Origin: an uncultured Litoreibacter sp.
Lineage (GTDB): Bacteria > Pseudomonadota > Alphaproteobacteria > Rhodobacterales > Rhodobacteraceae
Direction of reading: 5' to 3'
Assembly (NCBI GenBank): GCA_947494645.1
Contig: CANLVO010000001.1
Location: 1,488,001 to 1,552,000 of the forward strand
DNA: 64,000 bases
Each line of letters begins with the position of its first letter. Position 1 is the first letter of the stretch. Shown in pieces: positions 16,711 to 23,915 of this stretch. The notes under the pieces were generated by a model. The model ran no database searches, was not told where the DNA came from, and saw only the letters and a program-made list of their open reading frames with translations. Both the position numbers and the translations under genes were made by a program.

Positions 16711-17520
16711 TTAAACTTTGCCGGACAGCAGCTGATCCATGGAAAGCGCAGGTTGTGAGCAGCCCGCCTCCCCCACGATCTTCGCAGGCACACCAGCAAC
16801 CGTCTTCATCGGTGGCACTGGCTCAAGAACAACAGAGCCCGCCGCAACACGCGAGCAATGCCCAACTGTGATATTGCCCAAAACCTTGGCTCCCGCTCCG
16901 ATCAAAACACCGTTCTCAATCTTCGGGTGCCGGTCATCGTCTTCCTTGCCGGTCCCGCCTAAGGTCACGGAGTGAAGCATCGACACGTTGTCACCAACCA
17001 CGGCCGTCTCGCCAATCACGATTGAATGCGCGTGGTCGATCATGATCCCCCGGCCGATCTTGGCAGCCGGGTGAATGTCGATCCCAAACATCTCGCTCAC
17101 GCGCATCTGGAAGAAATAGGAAAGGTCTTTACGACCGTTTTGCCAAAGCCAATGGCCAACCCGATAAGCCTGAATAGCTTGAAAGCCTTTGAAATAGACC
17201 AACGGCTGCAAAAAGCGATGGCAGGCTGGGTCACGTTCGAACACGGCCATAATGTCGGCCCGTGCCGCGGCGCCAAGTTCCGGGTCAGCCCGGTAAGCCT
17301 CATCGGATATTTCCCGCAAGATCTGAGACGACATCTCGGCAGAGGCCAGTTTCTCGGAAATCCGAAACGACAAAGCCCGCTCAAGCGAGCGGTGATGCAG
17401 GATCGTCCCATGCAAAAGCCCGCCAAGCAGCGGCTCTTCTGCAATCGCATCACGCGCCTCGTCCGAAATGCGCTGCCAGACCGGATCAATCTCCGTGATT
17501 TGCGGGCTCTGATGCTGCAT
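16711..17520 (-). CDS. cysE: Serine O-acetyltransferase
   Basis: 269 residues. It makes O-acetylserine for cysteine synthesis. The N-terminal helical domain (about 1-150) precedes a left-handed beta helix of hexapeptide repeats: MIDHAHSIVIGETAVVGDNV, VTLGGTGKEDDDRHPKI and the ILGNITVG-type turns. The His of DHAHS and the Asp/His of DDRHP fit the active site. It lies next to the GTA remnant; cysE1 adjoins the GTA cluster in Rhodobacter capsulatus, where published work links it to GTA-mediated transfer. That synteny supports reading the neighbour as a decayed GTA. Confidence 0.96.
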   Translation of the reverse strand: MQHQSPQITEIDPVWQRISDEARDAIAEEPLLGGLLHGTILHHRSLERALSFRISEKLASAEMSSQILREISDEAYRADPELGAAARADIMAVFERDPACHRFLQPLVYFKGFQAIQAYRVGHWLWQNGRKDLSYFFQMRVSEMFGIDIHPAAKIGRGIMIDHAHSIVIGETAVVGDNVSMLHSVTLGGTGKEDDDRHPKIENGVLIGAGAKVLGNITVGHCSRVAAGSVVLEPVPPMKTVAGVPAKIVGEAGCSQPALSMDQLLSGKV

Positions 17521-17622: not shown

Positions 17623-18336
17623 TTAGTCGCCCAAAGGCAGATCAAACCGCATAAGATGAACGGCCAGCCGAACCGCTCCTCCGGTAAAGCTGCCGCCGTT
17701 CGCGGTCAGATCCAACCGCGTCGCGTTGTAATAGGTTACTGGTTGCCCCGTAAGTCCACGTAGCCAGGAACCTGCTCCCAGACCGAGGCCATCTCCATAG
17801 CGTGTTGCAGACCCATCCACACCCAAGGACCAATCGCTCAGATCGCCGGTGATCGTCTGCAACACCCGGCCCGTGATCCCCCAGACGCTGGTGTGTGACG
17901 GGATGACATATCCCGTTTGCTCCAACACGCCGCCACTTAAGACGTGGTCCACCTCAACGATGTCGGCGTGCATCGCGGCCTTATTGCTAGATACCGCCAG
18001 CGCATTGTCGATCCAAGTGTCGCCCGTATAGGTAAGCCGCCGAAATTCGTCAGAAACCCAAATCTCCCACCCCGGAAGCGGCAGAAAGAACGCCCAAGCG
18101 CCGTTAAGAAAGCTGGTCACCTCACCATCATGGCCCTGCCACGCATTAACAGCCCCCGGCGGGATCAAATAGGCCTCCCCTTCGCCGACCACCAGCGGCG
18201 GTGATTGCAGTGTCCGGCTCTCGGCTGTGACCTGCACCATGGCGTCTACCCGCGCCAACGCCTCGTTCACAGTCACATGTTTTTGCGCCTGCGCGGCGGC
18301 GACAAATGGCAATTGCAGTCTAGCTGAATCAGGCAT
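17623..18336 (-). CDS. DUF2793-type phage/GTA structural protein
   Basis: 237 residues. I start at ATG 18336 (MPDSARLQLPFV), which overlaps the stop of the upstream fusion gene by eight bases; the longer frame from 18429 lies inside that gene. The N-terminal segment AAQAQKHVTVNEALARVDAMV is the DUF2793 hallmark seen in Rhodobacterales GTA and prophage tail regions. The middle (INPPGAVNAWQ-like, WEIWVSDEF) is typical of the domain. It is the gene normally found just after gp15. Its exact role is not established to my knowledge. Confidence 0.8.
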   Translation of the reverse strand: MPDSARLQLPFVAAAQAQKHVTVNEALARVDAMVQVTAESRTLQSPPLVVGEGEAYLIPPGAVNAWQGHDGEVTSFLNGAWAFFLPLPGWEIWVSDEFRRLTYTGDTWIDNALAVSSNKAAMHADIVEVDHVLSGGVLEQTGYVIPSHTSVWGITGRVLQTITGDLSDWSLGVDGSATRYGDGLGLGAGSWLRGLTGQPVTYYNATRLDLTANGGSFTGGAVRLAVHLMRFDLPLGD

Positions 18337-20830
18337 CAATAATCTTCCTTGCAAAGGGCCCAGGCCCGAAACTCTGTGAAATCTGTGCGACTTGGACTTC
18401 AAATGGAGCAAACGCCCCGTCCAGAGCACTCAGCGCCGCAGGATAACTCCAATGAGGCGCTGTGGTGGTCACTTCCCGCAGGACTGAATCATCCTTGATG
18501 ATCCGTACTTGATAAGCTTCCAAATCCTCACCGAGCGGCACTTCGAACGAAGCCCAACTGTCGCCATCTATCCGGGTGCGTCTGACCCAAGATATCTCCA
18601 TCGCGTTGGCGGCTTGGGCGACGCGCAAGTGCGCAGGCGCGTAGGGTCGTAAACCAACCCCAGAGAACGCTTCGACATAGTGACGATAGGAAGGATCATC
18701 GATAGGGCGCAATCCCGGTCCGACGCGGTAATGGCGTGCAAGATCGCGATGCGACAGGCTGTGCTCCAGCTGTGTTGGTGCACCATCAAGCACGACGATC
18801 CTGCTGCCAACGGGCCACACCGAAGGCATCAGCCCATCCGTCCCGGCTTGCCCGCGTAGCAGGTCCGACAGGTCATAAGTGTTCGGCGCGATGAGATCAG
18901 CCAGCGCAAACTGTAAAATTTCCCAGTTGTCTGATGAGCCGTCGCCAATGGCGAGAACGTTCTTTCCCGATAGGACCTCAGATCGGCTCGCTGAACTCAA
19001 CGCGCCGTCTTGCAACACCACCCTCACAACCTGACCCGCCGCCCAACGACCGCTTTCTGAATGCTCAAGTGCTGTAGCGGTAACGCCAATTGACGAAGGC
19101 CGTTCTATGAGTGTGTTCAGCTCGTAGCCCGCATCCTCTGCCGCATCATAGACCGCTGCTGAACCGGGCCAGGGATTGGCCGAAACGGCAATGTAAGGCG
19201 CGTGCGGCACCTCGTCTCCGCGCAAAAGCGGCAGATCAAGAAATTGCGCCGTGATCGGAATAGGCACGCTAAACGCCCGCTGCAGAGGCGTGCTCTCTAC
19301 TCTCTGGCTCGGCGCATAAATCTGACGCTCAATCCGGGTTGCTTCCAAAGTCCGCGCCCCGGAGATCTCCACCCGATCCACCCGATACTCTGCTCCTTCA
19401 GCGCCAGACACGCGCAAAGTGTCACCCGCCCGGATCTCACTGCGAGACGCAGGCACACTCAGACGCAAACTCTCCCGCGCAACCCGTGCCTCCGAAAGCC
19501 AGCGTTCCGCAACGCTATTGGCCTCCGACCGCGTCAAACTCAGTGGCACCTCATTGTGAGTGATCTGCGCCGCAGCATTATCTGGAAATCTTGCAGACAC
19601 AACACGGCTCTCAAACGCACCATCCCCTGCGGGGTAGCCCAGCCGGACCTCACCTACGACCTCCGCCTCGGGCGCCCGGATCGCCTCCACCACAGCTTGG
19701 CCCCCATCGGACAGCACGTGATCTTCAGGCCCCAACTCATGCGCCTCCGCCAAGCTACGGTTACGAAACACCAGCCGACCGTTTGCCTCAACCGCATCAA
19801 TGGCATAGACCACCATCAGCGTCTGAATGCTGGCCCTCGGGCTTTCACTGTCCGACACCGTGAACCCGCGCAGCACGCCGTGCAGCATGCTGACGTCATA
19901 CGCCGTAATGCCGGCCGCTTCGCACAGCTCCGCCACGACGGCTGCCAAAGTCTGGTTGCTGCTGCGCCCGGTGATCCAGTGGCCTGTCAGGTAATTCTCT
20001 CCATCGCTCCAAACTTCGCGATTGTTCGGAAAATCCGGCCAGGGCCGCGCGTCCCAAGCCCACACATGGGTCTTGGACATGTCCACCATCGGCCCATCAT
20101 AAATGGCCGATACCGGGTTGTTCTCGGGCGTGGCGTAAAACTCCGCATAGGCCCTCAAAAACTGATGCTGAATATAGTCATCCCGCACGCCCGAGCTGAA
20201 ATGCGGCAGGGCGCTTTCGCTGGATTTGGCGTCGACAAACTTGTTTGGCTCATTTGATCCCTTGTCGATCGCGGCACATCCAAGCTCGTCGACCCATGCT
20301 GCGTCAAACTGCGGGCCGCGCAACCCTTCAGGGCTAGAGGCAGAGTAACACTCCGCAATCGCGCCATTGGGCCAGACCAGCCTGCGCCGCGTCGCCTGCC
20401 ATTCCGGACGCCTGTCTGGCGGCGAGCACGCCAGAATGCCGTTTTCACCGAACACCATCACGTCCCGCACTTGATCAAAGGTCTCGCCCACAAGCGCAAC
20501 CCTACGCGCGGTTCCTTCGTCCAGTGGCAAATCCCCCTCCACTATCGAACGCACCCATTCCGCGCCCGCTCTCGTCTTGCCAGCGCCACGCCCACCCAAG
20601 ATCACCCAGGAGCGCCAGTCGCCCTCCGGGGGCACTTGATGATCCATGGCCCAGAACTCGAACATATAGGGCAAGGCGTGCAACGCGTTCTCGCTCAGGC
20701 TGGCCAGAAACTCATCTGTTTCCTCTGGCGTCGCGGAGGCGAGCGAGACGGCGCCCGACCTCAGTTCGGGCGCTCCCAATGTCGACGGCATGTTTGCCAG
20801 CTTGGCCAAGGCGTTGGGCGAGCTTTTCAT
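18329..20830 (-). pseudogene. In-frame fusion of GTA large terminase (gp2, N-terminus) and GTA baseplate protein gp15 (C-terminus)
   Basis: 833 residues. Residues 1-184 are the GTA large terminase N-terminus: ALPYMFEFWAM, Walker A GGRGAGKTRAGAEW (79-92), and Walker B FDAAWVDELG (175-184). Without a break it becomes gp15: CAAIDKGSNEPNKFVDAKSSE, VWAWDARPWPDFP and WITGRSSNQTLA belong to the TIM-barrel and baseplate region. The junction is near 20280. The terminase nuclease domain, portal, protease, capsid and tail genes, and the gp15 N-terminus are missing, so this looks like a deletion. The start may be ATG 20830 or 20791. The neighbours (gp1-like gene, DUF2793, cysE) are those expected at the ends of a complete cluster. 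Confidence 0.88.
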
Positions 20831-21152
20831 GGATCTTGATCTCCTGTTGCATCGACTGGGTTATCAATGGCTCGAACCGCTTGATAACTTCGTTGACGTC
20901 CTTGTCGGGGTCGGCGCCGGCACGGATCCGAACCGTGTGGTCGTGGATTGCCTCCTTCAACCTGCCGAACTGGCCTTTGAAGATTGCGAGGTTGGTGTCG
21001 ATCATCTCCGTGTAGCCGTCATCCAAGGTGCTGTCCGTGGCGCCTGTCTCTTCCTGCGCGGCGGAGGCTTCGGTGTCGTCGTGGCCTTGTTGTATCGGGT
21101 GGTCCTTGTCTTGGCCGCTTTGCGAGGCTGTGTCGTTCGAGTTGTGATCCAT
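20712..21152 (-). CDS. Probable GTA gp1-like protein (small terminase position)
   Basis: 146 residues from ATG 21152; the extra residues of the longer frame (to 21203) look non-coding. The N-terminal 50 residues are polar and Gln/Asp/Thr-rich. Residues about 55-146 are helical (NLAIFKGQFGRLKEAIHDHT). It lies immediately before the terminase, where RcGTA encodes gp1, shown to be the small terminase. Its 3' end overlaps the terminase frame by 80-119 bp depending on that start. The function is assigned by position only. Confidence 0.55.
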   Translation of the reverse strand: MDHNSNDTASQSGQDKDHPIQQGHDDTEASAAQEETGATDSTLDDGYTEMIDTNLAIFKGQFGRLKEAIHDHTVRIRAGADPDKDVNEVIKRFEPLITQSMQQEIKIHEKLAQRLGQAGKHAVDIGSARTEVGRRLARLRDARGNR

Positions 21153-21492: not shown

Positions 21493-22653
21493 CTAGTTAT
21501 TCGCGTTCCGTTCGGCCTCGATCTTGCGCCATTCCGCTACGTTCGCGTTGTGCTCTGCAATCGTCACAGCAAATGCATGGCCCCCGGTCCCATCTGCAAC
21601 AAAGAAGATGTAGGGCGTCTCGTCGGGGTTCAGCGCAGCCTCAATAGCCAATTTGCCCGGGTTGGCAATCGGCCCCGGCGGCAACGCAGGGATCACGTAG
21701 GTATTATAGGCGTTGCGCGCCCGCAGCTCCGATTGGCGAATGCCGCGACCCAAACCATTGCCCTCACCATTGGTGATCCCGTAGATCACCGTCGGGTCGG
21801 TTTGCAGCTTCATGCCTTGGTTCAGCCGGTTGACGAACACGCTGGCCACCTGCCGACGTTCTTCGGCCAGGCCCGTCTCTTTCTCCACGATGGAGGCAAG
21901 CACCAGCGCCTCTTCCTTCGTCTCCAACGGCAGCCCGTCAGCACGGTTTGCCCAAGCCTCGTCCAGAATACGCACCTGCGCTTCGGCCATGCGGTCCAGT
22001 ATCTCGCCCCGCACCGCACCGCGCTTCACTTCATAAGTGTCCGGCGCAAGCGATCCCTCGGCGGGCAATTCACCAACCTCGCCTTCCAGGAAATCCGCGC
22101 CCTTCAACCCTTCGACAATCTGCCAGCTGGTCAGCCCCTCGGCCACAGCCAGACGGTAGATGATCGGCAGCTCTGCCGCCACAGCCTCGGTATAGGCTTC
22201 AGGCAATGGCTCGCCTGCTTTGAACTCGGCAAGCACAACCTCTTCGCCTGTGCCCGGCGTCCGCTCCCGGAATCGCAGCTCACCACCCGTGTTGCGGATC
22301 ACGTAAGTCGCCACATAGCGAAAGGTCGACGGCCCCCCAGCGGTGACGATATCGATGATCTCCGCCATCGAGGCCCCCGCAGGCAGCTCGTAATTGCCAA
22401 ATTTCAGCTTAGAGGCCATGTCGCTATATTCAGCACCGATCCTAAAGATGGACGCATTGGTAATCGCACCCTGCGCGGCCAGCTTTTCCGAGACCGAGCG
22501 CAAGGACGCCCCGCGTGGCACCTCAAAGAACACTGCGCTTTCCAGCGGTCCCTCGGATTTATACTGCGACTGCCCCCAACCGATCAGCCCGCCAAGCACA
22601 AACAGGCCGACAATGAAGACCGTCAGGAAATTGGAGGCGATGGATTTCCACAT
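21493..22653 (-). CDS. mltG: Endolytic murein transglycosylase MltG
   Basis: 386 residues. MltG cuts nascent glycan strands and sets their length. A membrane helix lies at about residues 8-27 (FLTVFIVGLFVLGGLIGW), then a LysM-like region (FFEVPRGASLRSVSEKLAAQG), and the YceG catalytic domain with ASIVEKETG, whose Glu is the catalytic residue by family analogy, and QTDPTVIYGI. The length suits the family. It follows fabF by eight bases on the same strand, a common arrangement in the group. Confidence 0.95.
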   Translation of the reverse strand: MWKSIASNFLTVFIVGLFVLGGLIGWGQSQYKSEGPLESAVFFEVPRGASLRSVSEKLAAQGAITNASIFRIGAEYSDMASKLKFGNYELPAGASMAEIIDIVTAGGPSTFRYVATYVIRNTGGELRFRERTPGTGEEVVLAEFKAGEPLPEAYTEAVAAELPIIYRLAVAEGLTSWQIVEGLKGADFLEGEVGELPAEGSLAPDTYEVKRGAVRGEILDRMAEAQVRILDEAWANRADGLPLETKEEALVLASIVEKETGLAEERRQVASVFVNRLNQGMKLQTDPTVIYGITNGEGNGLGRGIRQSELRARNAYNTYVIPALPPGPIANPGKLAIEAALNPDETPYIFFVADGTGGHAFAVTIAEHNANVAEWRKIEAERNANN

Positions 22654-22661
22654 CTCTCAGC

Positions 22662-23915
22662 TCACACCTTGCCCATGATCAGGCAGGCATTCGTCCCACC
22701 AAACCCGAAGGAATTCGACAGCACGACCGACACATCCCGTTTGACCGCGGCGTTGGCACAGAGGTCCATCTCAGTCTCAGCCGCCGGGTTGTCCAGATTG
22801 ATCGTCGGCGGACATACTTGGTCACGAATAGCCAGAATGCAGAAGATCGCTTCAATCGCGCCAGCCGCACCCAGCAAATGCCCGGTCATCGATTTGGTGG
22901 ACGACATCGCCGTCCCGGCCGCTGCATCGCCCAGCAGACGCTCTACCGCGCCCAGCTCGATCGTATCCGCCATGGTCGAAGTGCCATGCGCGTTCACATA
23001 GTCAATCGCACTCACGTCAATGCCCGCGCGCTTCACCGCCGCACGCATCGCACGTTCCGCACCTTCATGGTCCTCTGGCGGCGCGGTGATGTGATGCGCG
23101 TCACCCGACAACCCATAACCCAAAACTTCGGCGTAGATCGTCGCACCACGCGCCTTGGCATGCTCGTATTCTTCCAAGACGACAACGCCCGCGCCTTCGC
23201 CCATCACGAACCCGTCGCGATCCGCATCCCATGGGCGCGAGGCCTTTTGCGGATCATCGGGATGCGCGGTCGACAGCGCCTTACAAGCGTTGAACCCGGC
23301 AATCCCAATTTCGCAAATCGGGCTTTCCGCGCCGCCCGCAATCATCACATCCGCATCGTCCAAAGCAATCAGCCGCGCCGCGTCACCAATGGCATGGGCG
23401 CCCGTCGAGCAGGCTGTGACAACCGCGTGGTTTGGCCCCTTGAAGCCGTACTTGATCGACACCTGACCCGAGACCAGGTTGACCAAGGCACCGGGGATAA
23501 AGAACGGCGACACCCGGCGTGGCCCGCGTTCCTTGATCAAGACGGCGGTCTCGGCAATCGACTGCAACCCACCAATGCCGGACCCGATCATCACGCCCGT
23601 GCGCTCCAGCGCAGCGCGATCCTCGGGCTGCCAGCCCGCATCTTCGACGGCCATTTGCGCGGCAGCCATCCCGTACAGGATAAAGTCATCCACTTTACGG
23701 GCATCTTTGGCAGCCATGAAATCGTCCGGGTTAAACTCGCCGGGCCCCTCGCCACGCGGCACTTCGCAAGCGTAGCCGGTACCCAGATGCGAGGCGTCAA
23801 ATTTCTCAATGGTGCGCGCGCCGGATTTGCCCGCCAAAGCGTTCTTCCAGCTTTCCTCAACACCGCTGCCCAGCGGCGTGACCATACCCAAACCTGTTAC
23901 GACGACTCGACGCAT
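22662..23915 (-). CDS. fabF: 3-oxoacyl-ACP synthase II
   Basis: 417 residues. It condenses malonyl-ACP with acyl-ACP in fatty acid elongation. The thiolase fold is clear: N-terminal MRRVVVTGLGMVTPLG, the nucleophile Cys169 in VVTACSTGAHAIG, the two catalytic histidines in NAHGTSTMADTIE and SMTGHLLGAAGA, and the glycine-rich NSFGFGGTNACL near the end. It should follow acpP in the operon, but two opposite-strand genes now lie between them. Confidence 0.98.
   Translation of the reverse strand: MRRVVVTGLGMVTPLGSGVEESWKNALAGKSGARTIEKFDASHLGTGYACEVPRGEGPGEFNPDDFMAAKDARKVDDFILYGMAAAQMAVEDAGWQPEDRAALERTGVMIGSGIGGLQSIAETAVLIKERGPRRVSPFFIPGALVNLVSGQVSIKYGFKGPNHAVVTACSTGAHAIGDAARLIALDDADVMIAGGAESPICEIGIAGFNACKALSTAHPDDPQKASRPWDADRDGFVMGEGAGVVVLEEYEHAKARGATIYAEVLGYGLSGDAHHITAPPEDHEGAERAMRAAVKRAGIDVSAIDYVNAHGTSTMADTIELGAVERLLGDAAAGTAMSSTKSMTGHLLGAAGAIEAIFCILAIRDQVCPPTINLDNPAAETEMDLCANAAVKRDVSVVLSNSFGFGGTNACLIMGKV

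Follow-up and report, generated by a model that had tools for sequence, protein, structure and literature searches.

What is left when the gene cluster of a gene transfer agent (GTA) collapses, and can the remnant become a gene in its own right? This question is raised by a 64,000-nucleotide stretch of DNA from an uncultured Litoreibacter sp. (contig CANLVO010000001.1), called the window here. Its minus strand holds one open reading frame (ORF) at 18329–20830 that codes for 833 amino acids. An earlier note, made from the sequence alone, had read this ORF as a large terminase (TerL) fused in frame to the GTA baseplate protein gp15, with no stop along the frame. We confirmed both points: there is no internal stop, and Pfam, NCBIfam and an alignment to G018, the closest relative in which the cluster is intact and continuous (G and L numbers label genomes and loci, and "own genus" means the genus of the window's genome) identify the ORF as the N-terminal part of a TerL of the Rhodobacter capsulatus GTA (RcGTA) type, joined in frame to the C-terminal half of the megatron (gp15).

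The TerL part comprises residues 1–182/184, and the megatron part runs from a Glu-x-Gly-Cys motif onward. Aligned separately to RcGTA-type gp2 and gp15, each half was confirmed as what the earlier note had taken it for. Relative to G018, the first 184 of 472 TerL residues are 89% identical, and residues 677–1333 of the 1333-residue megatron are 81% identical. Because both G018 parents read E-L-G at this point, the join falls within the codons of E182-L183-G184 (20279–20287, minus strand) and is ambiguous within these three residues. Terminase_6N (PF03237) matches residues 77–183 with 52.9 bits, above the gathering cut-off of 22, and spans only model positions 2–105 of 215. GTA_TIM (PF13547) matches residues 173–268 with 131 bits, also above its cut-off; only its last 96 positions (204–299 of 299) are present, and the TIM barrel is thus incomplete. 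Phage-tail_3 and Rcc01698_C follow at residues 327–488 and 580–679. The NCBIfam equivalog GTA_megatron (NF048004) aligns residues 174–829 to its positions 640–1297 of 1299 with 752 bits, which is below the whole-protein cut-off of 800 that the intact G018 megatron passes with 1794.5 bits.

On the minus strand these elements are ordered as follows. The Walker A motif GGRGAGKT (residues 79–86) lies at 20573–20596; in 51 aligned fusions its residues 79–81 and 83–86 are invariant and residue 82 is at least 90% conserved. The segment AAWVDE (residues 177–182, 20285–20302) is what we take to be the Walker B strand with the catalytic Glu, and D181 and E182 are invariant in the same alignment. Everything past the Walker B Glu of an RcGTA-type TerL is missing, presumably the remainder of the ATPase fold together with the C-terminal, nuclease-bearing half, whereas the first 182–184 residues with Walker A and the Walker B Asp-Glu are shared. 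The last part of the megatron TIM-barrel or peripheral domain occupies 20027–20281 (Pfam and model), the central, hub-like Phage-tail_3 region 19367–19852, and the fibre-binding Rcc01698_C region 18794–19093. Compared with the RcGTA megatron (Rcc01698; PDB 6TBA chain 8A, 6TEH), fusion residues 172–830 match residues 643–1301 of 6TBA_8A (E 4e-221), but the iris/penetration and adhesin-like domains and most of the peripheral domain are absent; domain names and limits are those in the accessible part of PMC7296036.

The breakpoints in TerL and megatron are 11,372 bp apart in G018, the cluster of which is ~11.4 kb longer. Ten ORFs of this region were compared with NCBIfam, which named portal, protease, capsid, connector, major tail, tape measure, hub, peptidase and full megatron; the ORF in the TerL position had no match. 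In G018, the genes for portal, protease, capsid and tail that the earlier note expected between the two halves are where it had placed them. The window locus lacks all of these, along with TerL past codon 182 and half of the megatron, and retains gp1, the chimera and a DUF2793 gene. This bears out the collapse, and since portal, protease, capsid and tail genes are gone, a GTA particle could presumably no longer be made. Searches of the own genome (3.44 Mb, 8 contigs, 99.4% complete) with the fusion protein and with Phage_portal gave no second GTA copy: neither half has a second match, the only large-terminase match is the truncated one (residues 1–184 of 472), and Phage_portal, searched for in this genome only, gave no match.

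We then asked whether this chimera is unique, and found that it is a real and recurrent, residue-exact outcome of GTA collapse. In all 35 distinct fusion genomes inspected, which were found by protein similarity with no preselection for the junction, W-x-D-E of TerL is joined in one frame to x-G-C of the megatron. The TerL and megatron of G018 (472 and 1333 residues) would permit ~629,000 in-frame joins. In each genus the residue after D-E is that of the local megatron: Leu in Ruegeria, as in 36 of 36 non-fused megatrons matched by pattern; Phe in a Roseicyclus-like genus, as in 10 of 10 intact ones; and Tyr in all 8 Roseovarius fusions, as in 10 of 12 non-fused genomes examined. The residues before D-E likewise track the local TerL. 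For example, the Roseicyclus-like genus reads FDLAW, and Roseovarius G498 and its intact sister G543 both read FDCAW. Local residues on both sides of the join therefore identify the crossover as TerL Glu onto megatron Glu. In two loci (L073 and L098) a conserved stretch just after the junction, NKF.D.KSSES, is lost from an otherwise open ORF (ratio of nonsynonymous to synonymous divergence, dN/dS, ~0.16), which suggests an older fusion with a dispensable linker.

Within the own genus, the fusion appeared as one match in 3 of 21 genomes (G000, G005, G007); it was also found in 10 of 54 Ruegeria genomes, in 3 of 13 of the Roseicyclus-like genus, and in 8 of 84 Roseovarius genomes, where not every row of the search was among the matches listed. 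A draw across the family with nearly one genome per genus gave at least 15 fusions in 394 genomes, one of them (G357) without inspection of the junction. When the genome collection was searched with a degenerate DNA pattern for the junction, 75 loci matched: 72 in fusion contexts, including one broken just before the junction (L062), and three by chance (L070, L096, L101), which were dropped before the counts. Most of these loci carry names that we take to belong to the Rhodobacterales. The same junction stands in four loci (L083, L095, L099, L127) from records named Chelativorans multitrophicus, Mesorhizobium alhagi, Phyllobacterium calauticae and a Rhizobiaceae metagenome-assembled genome (MAG), that is, with Hyphomicrobiales names. 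The pattern had no match in viral contigs. A phage or plasmid source was rejected as well, since in none of 50,697 phage and 72,556 plasmid records does a single place cover 80% of the fusion. We also looked for an old fused clade among Silicimonas-type genera, without result, as each of the two genera examined is represented by one genome. The earlier note had considered that the fusion might be the normal form in intact clusters. This was not borne out: among the fusion genomes of the protein searches no second match to the fusion protein was found, except for a terminase-only match at 42% in G480; the family draw scored two candidates per genome.

Which process could place the join at one residue? 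The earlier note had proposed one deletion through short identity at the ELG codons. Across the 44 intact clusters compared, 32 from Ruegeria and 12 from the own genus, however, the exact DNA match at the join site is 0–8 nt long, and the same TerL and megatron stretches share 87–340 exact repeats of at least 8 nt. On the megatron side Roseovarius has R-F-[TSA]-E, without the TGG of other genera, which leaves mostly GAR alone in common. We therefore rejected deletion by microhomology. A single event fits no better, with the identical join found across Rhodobacterales and in the four records with Hyphomicrobiales names. Synonymous divergence at the ends in intact genomes is ordinary: observed/expected ratios are 0.93 and 1.30 on the TerL side and 1.12 and 0.82 on the megatron side (codons 0–5 and 5–10 from the join, respectively), and therefore no conserved DNA motif is visible. 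As a whole, the interpretation in the earlier note is partly supported, and the recurrence had escaped it.

An exact join with only 0–8 nt shared and without a visible DNA motif may point to selection on the protein. The best single reading of these sequences is that of a convergently selected chimera with a candidate function, to which we give a probability of about 0.45. According to this reading, an in-frame deletion of ~11.4 kb joined TerL codon 182, the Walker B Glu, to its counterpart in the megatron, a Glu codon close to where the TIM barrel ends. The same deletion is observed at the same residue in many lineages that the trees place apart, each time flanked by local sequence. Non-producing cells may be favoured repeatedly, as in the published "cheater" idea, and of all deletions that could occur, the one that gives the chimera would be preferred and kept for a time.

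Gene trees suggest how often this may have happened. The fusions nest among relatives without the fusion, and all-fused clades number 3 for 3 fusions in the own genus, 3 for 3 in the Roseicyclus-like genus, 9 for 10 in Ruegeria and 6 for 8 in Roseovarius, where sampling was thin (12 of 76 non-fused genomes) and G500, with the two genes ~4 kb apart and itself partly deleted, was entered as non-fused. Provided that the deletion is irreversible, the trees point to 21 or more origins in four genera, with several nodes weakly supported. Own-genus trees of N-half, C-half and flanking genes do not support a single origin within the genus: G000 groups with intact G012 and G018 (G012, which is divided between contigs, does not appear in every tree), G005 stands among intact G001, G003, G004, G006 and G014 and partly deleted G002, and G007 falls outside both groups. 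Among 156 megatron-half sequences the fusion label is clustered, with 31 changes against a shuffled mean of 51.8, a result of little weight because the set includes few intact genomes from outside the four genera.

The fusion genes look about as constrained as intact ones: on megatron-half branches, nonsynonymous/synonymous counts are 365/1324 (0.28) for 16 fusions and 1233/4392 (0.28) for 57 intact genes, partly deleted loci being left out. For the N half of 17 trios the ratios are 0.32 (fusions) and 0.28 (intact). Of 73 loci not cut by the locus end, 64 have an unbroken ORF with a consensus Walker A, counted by locus with duplicates included (the set of 98 loci holds 79 distinct sequences). 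Among the nine odd loci, a mismatch to the Walker A pattern is the sole oddity of L185 (G452), L039 and L121 have one and the same sequence, and L191 (G450) has a TGA. The earlier note had left the open frame as either recent or under selection, and this alternative stands as it was put. A Roseovarius clade in which four of five species are fused speaks against pure youth, with the qualification that one inherited fusion is not proven for such pairs. The four fusions have no stop, synonymous divergence (dS) among them is 0.26–0.66 and dN/dS is 0.07–0.16 for both halves, and dN/dS relative to the intact member is similar, at 0.08–0.17. Other fused pairs examined gave dN/dS values of 0.04–0.33 in Rhodobacterales and 0.29–0.81 in Hyphomicrobiales.

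To obtain an idea of what the chimera might do, we modelled it with AlphaFold (51 sequences). The central and fibre-binding parts of the megatron are confidently predicted and the TerL part partly so; the TIM-barrel remnant is largely modelled as disordered. The best Foldseek match is the megatron of roseophage vB_DshS-R4C (PDB 8GTC chain M, E 1e-39), which also matches in sequence and, unlike the fusion, is a full-length phage tail protein with no terminase attached; further matches are the RcGTA megatron and other tail-tip proteins. An intact TerL modelled as control (50 sequences) has a strand before the P-loop at 74–78 and strands after Walker B. A new fold in which the Walker B strand replaces a barrel strand was not supported by this comparison. 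The ATP-binding half that the earlier note saw as kept is thus present as sequence, but in the predicted structure it lacks the P-loop strand of intact TerL, and a normal ATPase is unlikely. With the least certainty, the chimera would be produced upon activation of the GTA operon, and would display the folded central and fibre-binding modules of the megatron on a TerL-derived N-terminal segment. It may then act as a decoy or dominant-negative in tail or baseplate assembly of GTAs or related phages or, alternatively, as a fibre-binding scaffold, and not as an ATPase. PADLOC assigned no defence family at E up to 1 to the fusion, DUF2793 or gp1 proteins.

Several observations weigh against the selected chimera. 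In the model, confidence scores (pLDDT) are below 50 at the P-loop (78–81), the junction (183–218) and residues 256–291, and no P-loop strand forms. The first ~80 residues evolve at a ratio of 0.55 in fusions and 0.31 in intact genes (p=0.013), and the C half of the 17 trios shows a slight rise (0.26 vs 0.22, p=0.037). Ruegeria ratios for other collapsed, fused and intact loci are 0.32, 0.29 and 0.25 for the megatron half and 0.31, 0.24 and 0.18 for the terminase half; since other collapsed loci are near the fusions, collapse seems to be recent in general. Extreme youth would give constrained counts equally well, and these data do not separate it from selection. Finally, the Ruegeria fusions are distributed as shuffled labels would be: they form 9 all-fused clades, and shuffling gives 9.3 on average, which implies fast fusion turnover.

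The strongest competitor, which we nevertheless consider doubtful, holds that one or a few old fusion alleles are passed between species through homologous recombination in the flanking arms. The arms would later turn local, and only the junction would be identical by descent. RcGTA packages fragments of a few kb. The deletion would fit on a fragment of this size and the intact cluster of ~14 kb would not, a difference that would help the allele to spread. Such an allele would explain the exact junction, the scattered distribution and the intact member inside the Roseovarius clade. Local traces also agree with it: near the junction G526 looks mosaic, the codons GTC GAC GAG CTT at this place are common to G000 and G007, and the last 10 TerL-half codons of G419 match its sister at 23 of 30 bases compared with ~94% further out. 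The direct tests for a shared short junction tract were negative. Across the four genera, fusions resemble each other at the junction no more than their flanks predict (permutation fractions 0.30–0.94 for 4–20 codons on each side; 0.077 for the N side alone at 4 codons), Ruegeria alone shows no excess similarity (0.77–0.996 for 5, 10 and 20 codons), and the divergence profiles have no clear peak at the junction, the power of these tests being limited by near-saturated synonymous sites. Residues typical of each lineage persist to within a few codons of the join, and a long imported tract was not seen in the identity profile of the own genome, from which the misaligned N-side row of G005 was excluded. 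If a circulating allele were nevertheless the cause, this would be a case of a deletion spreading by recombination.

Somewhat less probable again is a precise mutational hotspot that repeats the deletion, with a functionless product in young and short-lived carrier lineages. Random scatter over Ruegeria fits this explanation, and the similarly low decay of other collapsed loci makes youth plausible. At most 0–8 nt are shared at the site, however, with many repeats at least as long nearby; Roseovarius lacks the TGG and shares mostly GAR; and synonymous sites at the ends are not unusually conserved, so that no site for a recombinase or nuclease can be made out. If the join were error-prone, out-of-frame variants at the same place would also be expected, and there were none among the Ruegeria matches listed. 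If true, this explanation would require a deletion process of unusual precision without homology.

Ordinary one-off decay with coincidental recurrence can claim that GTA pseudogenisation and loss are already known (PMC10883770, as far as its accessible text goes) and that deletions with other ends lie beside the fusions, but with 35 of 35 inspected fusions joined at one residue it is very improbable. In Ruegeria, 10 of 18 collapsed clusters noted end in the residue-exact chimera, and deletions with other ends occur in G414, G416, G417, G420, G439, G442, G445 and G460; of three loci read base by base (G414, G439, G442), only G439 has another in-frame join, which leads from the N-terminal part of TerL into the last part of the megatron and is open for 239 codons (L228). 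Assembly collapse or another artefact, in favour of which no observation was made, is likewise very unlikely, because the same join occurs in many separate assemblies, isolates and MAGs alike, some with only 2–4 contigs (G472, G007, G124, G005), and because the ends share too little sequence to collapse.

The genes around the fusion mark the ends of the former cluster, as the earlier note had proposed for gp1, DUF2793 and cysE. The gp1-like gene, in the position of the RcGTA small terminase, lies at 20712–21152 on the minus strand and overlaps the 5′ end of the fusion; the earlier note had extended the feature from 18329 to 21152, of which the lower limit held, while the fusion ends at 20830 and 21152 is the likely start of gp1. 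Compared with the TerL half, this gp1-like gene has diverged far more quickly (tblastn identity of gp1 vs TerL half: 54% vs 89% to G018 and 76% vs 92% to G012). As an internal control for decay it was uninformative, since gp1 is open in the 8 fused loci inspected. Directly downstream follows the DUF2793 gene (17623–18336, minus strand; start inferred at an internal Met, the ORF reaching 18429), and then cysE for serine acetyltransferase (16711–17520, minus). Two local markers flank the locus upstream, presumably mltG-like (21493–22653, minus) and fabF-like (22662–23915, minus) genes. The GTA holin family PF11351 occurs in 21 of 21 own-genus and 54 of 54 Ruegeria genomes, even where clusters are fused, partly deleted or almost or wholly undetected (G009, G011), and is therefore uninformative as a sign of decay. 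In L093 and L190 (G441) the fusion frame is open for ~470 further codons upstream of the fusion start, giving a putative coding frame of 1310 codons in all. Some Ruegeria and Roseovarius genomes (e.g. G433, G523, G531, G545) hold additional megatron-like genes at 35–39% identity, which are probably prophages. The top entry among the phage matches listed to the megatron half is OP947159.1 (35% identity), named Desulfofustis phage, which is unexpected for its non-alphaproteobacterial host name.

What does this chimera mean for GTA-bearing bacteria? GTA loss has so far been described, in the accessible parts of the literature, as pseudogenisation or absence. The available text of PMC10883770 discusses pseudogenised clusters as possible recent cheaters and, as here, GTA production is lost in scattered alphaproteobacterial lineages; unlike the present loci, no recurrent identical in-frame fusion is mentioned in it. 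Nor is a TerL–megatron fusion described in the accessible parts of the papers found on GTA loss, fusion or deletion or on the megatron (including PMC7296036, PMC7947584, PMC10883770 and PMC9662315), a search that most subscription papers lie outside. As a tentative step beyond the convergently selected chimera, to be held with less confidence than that reading itself, GTAs may have a preferred exit state: from Rhodobacterales into Hyphomicrobiales, selection would repeatedly rebuild a chimera of TerL up to its catalytic Glu with the megatron hub and fibre-binding region as a new cellular factor in non-producers, for example as a poison of GTA or phage tail assembly. If selected, the chimera would stand as a remarkable example of molecular convergence through gene fusion, and would provide a handle on how non-producers beat GTA producers.

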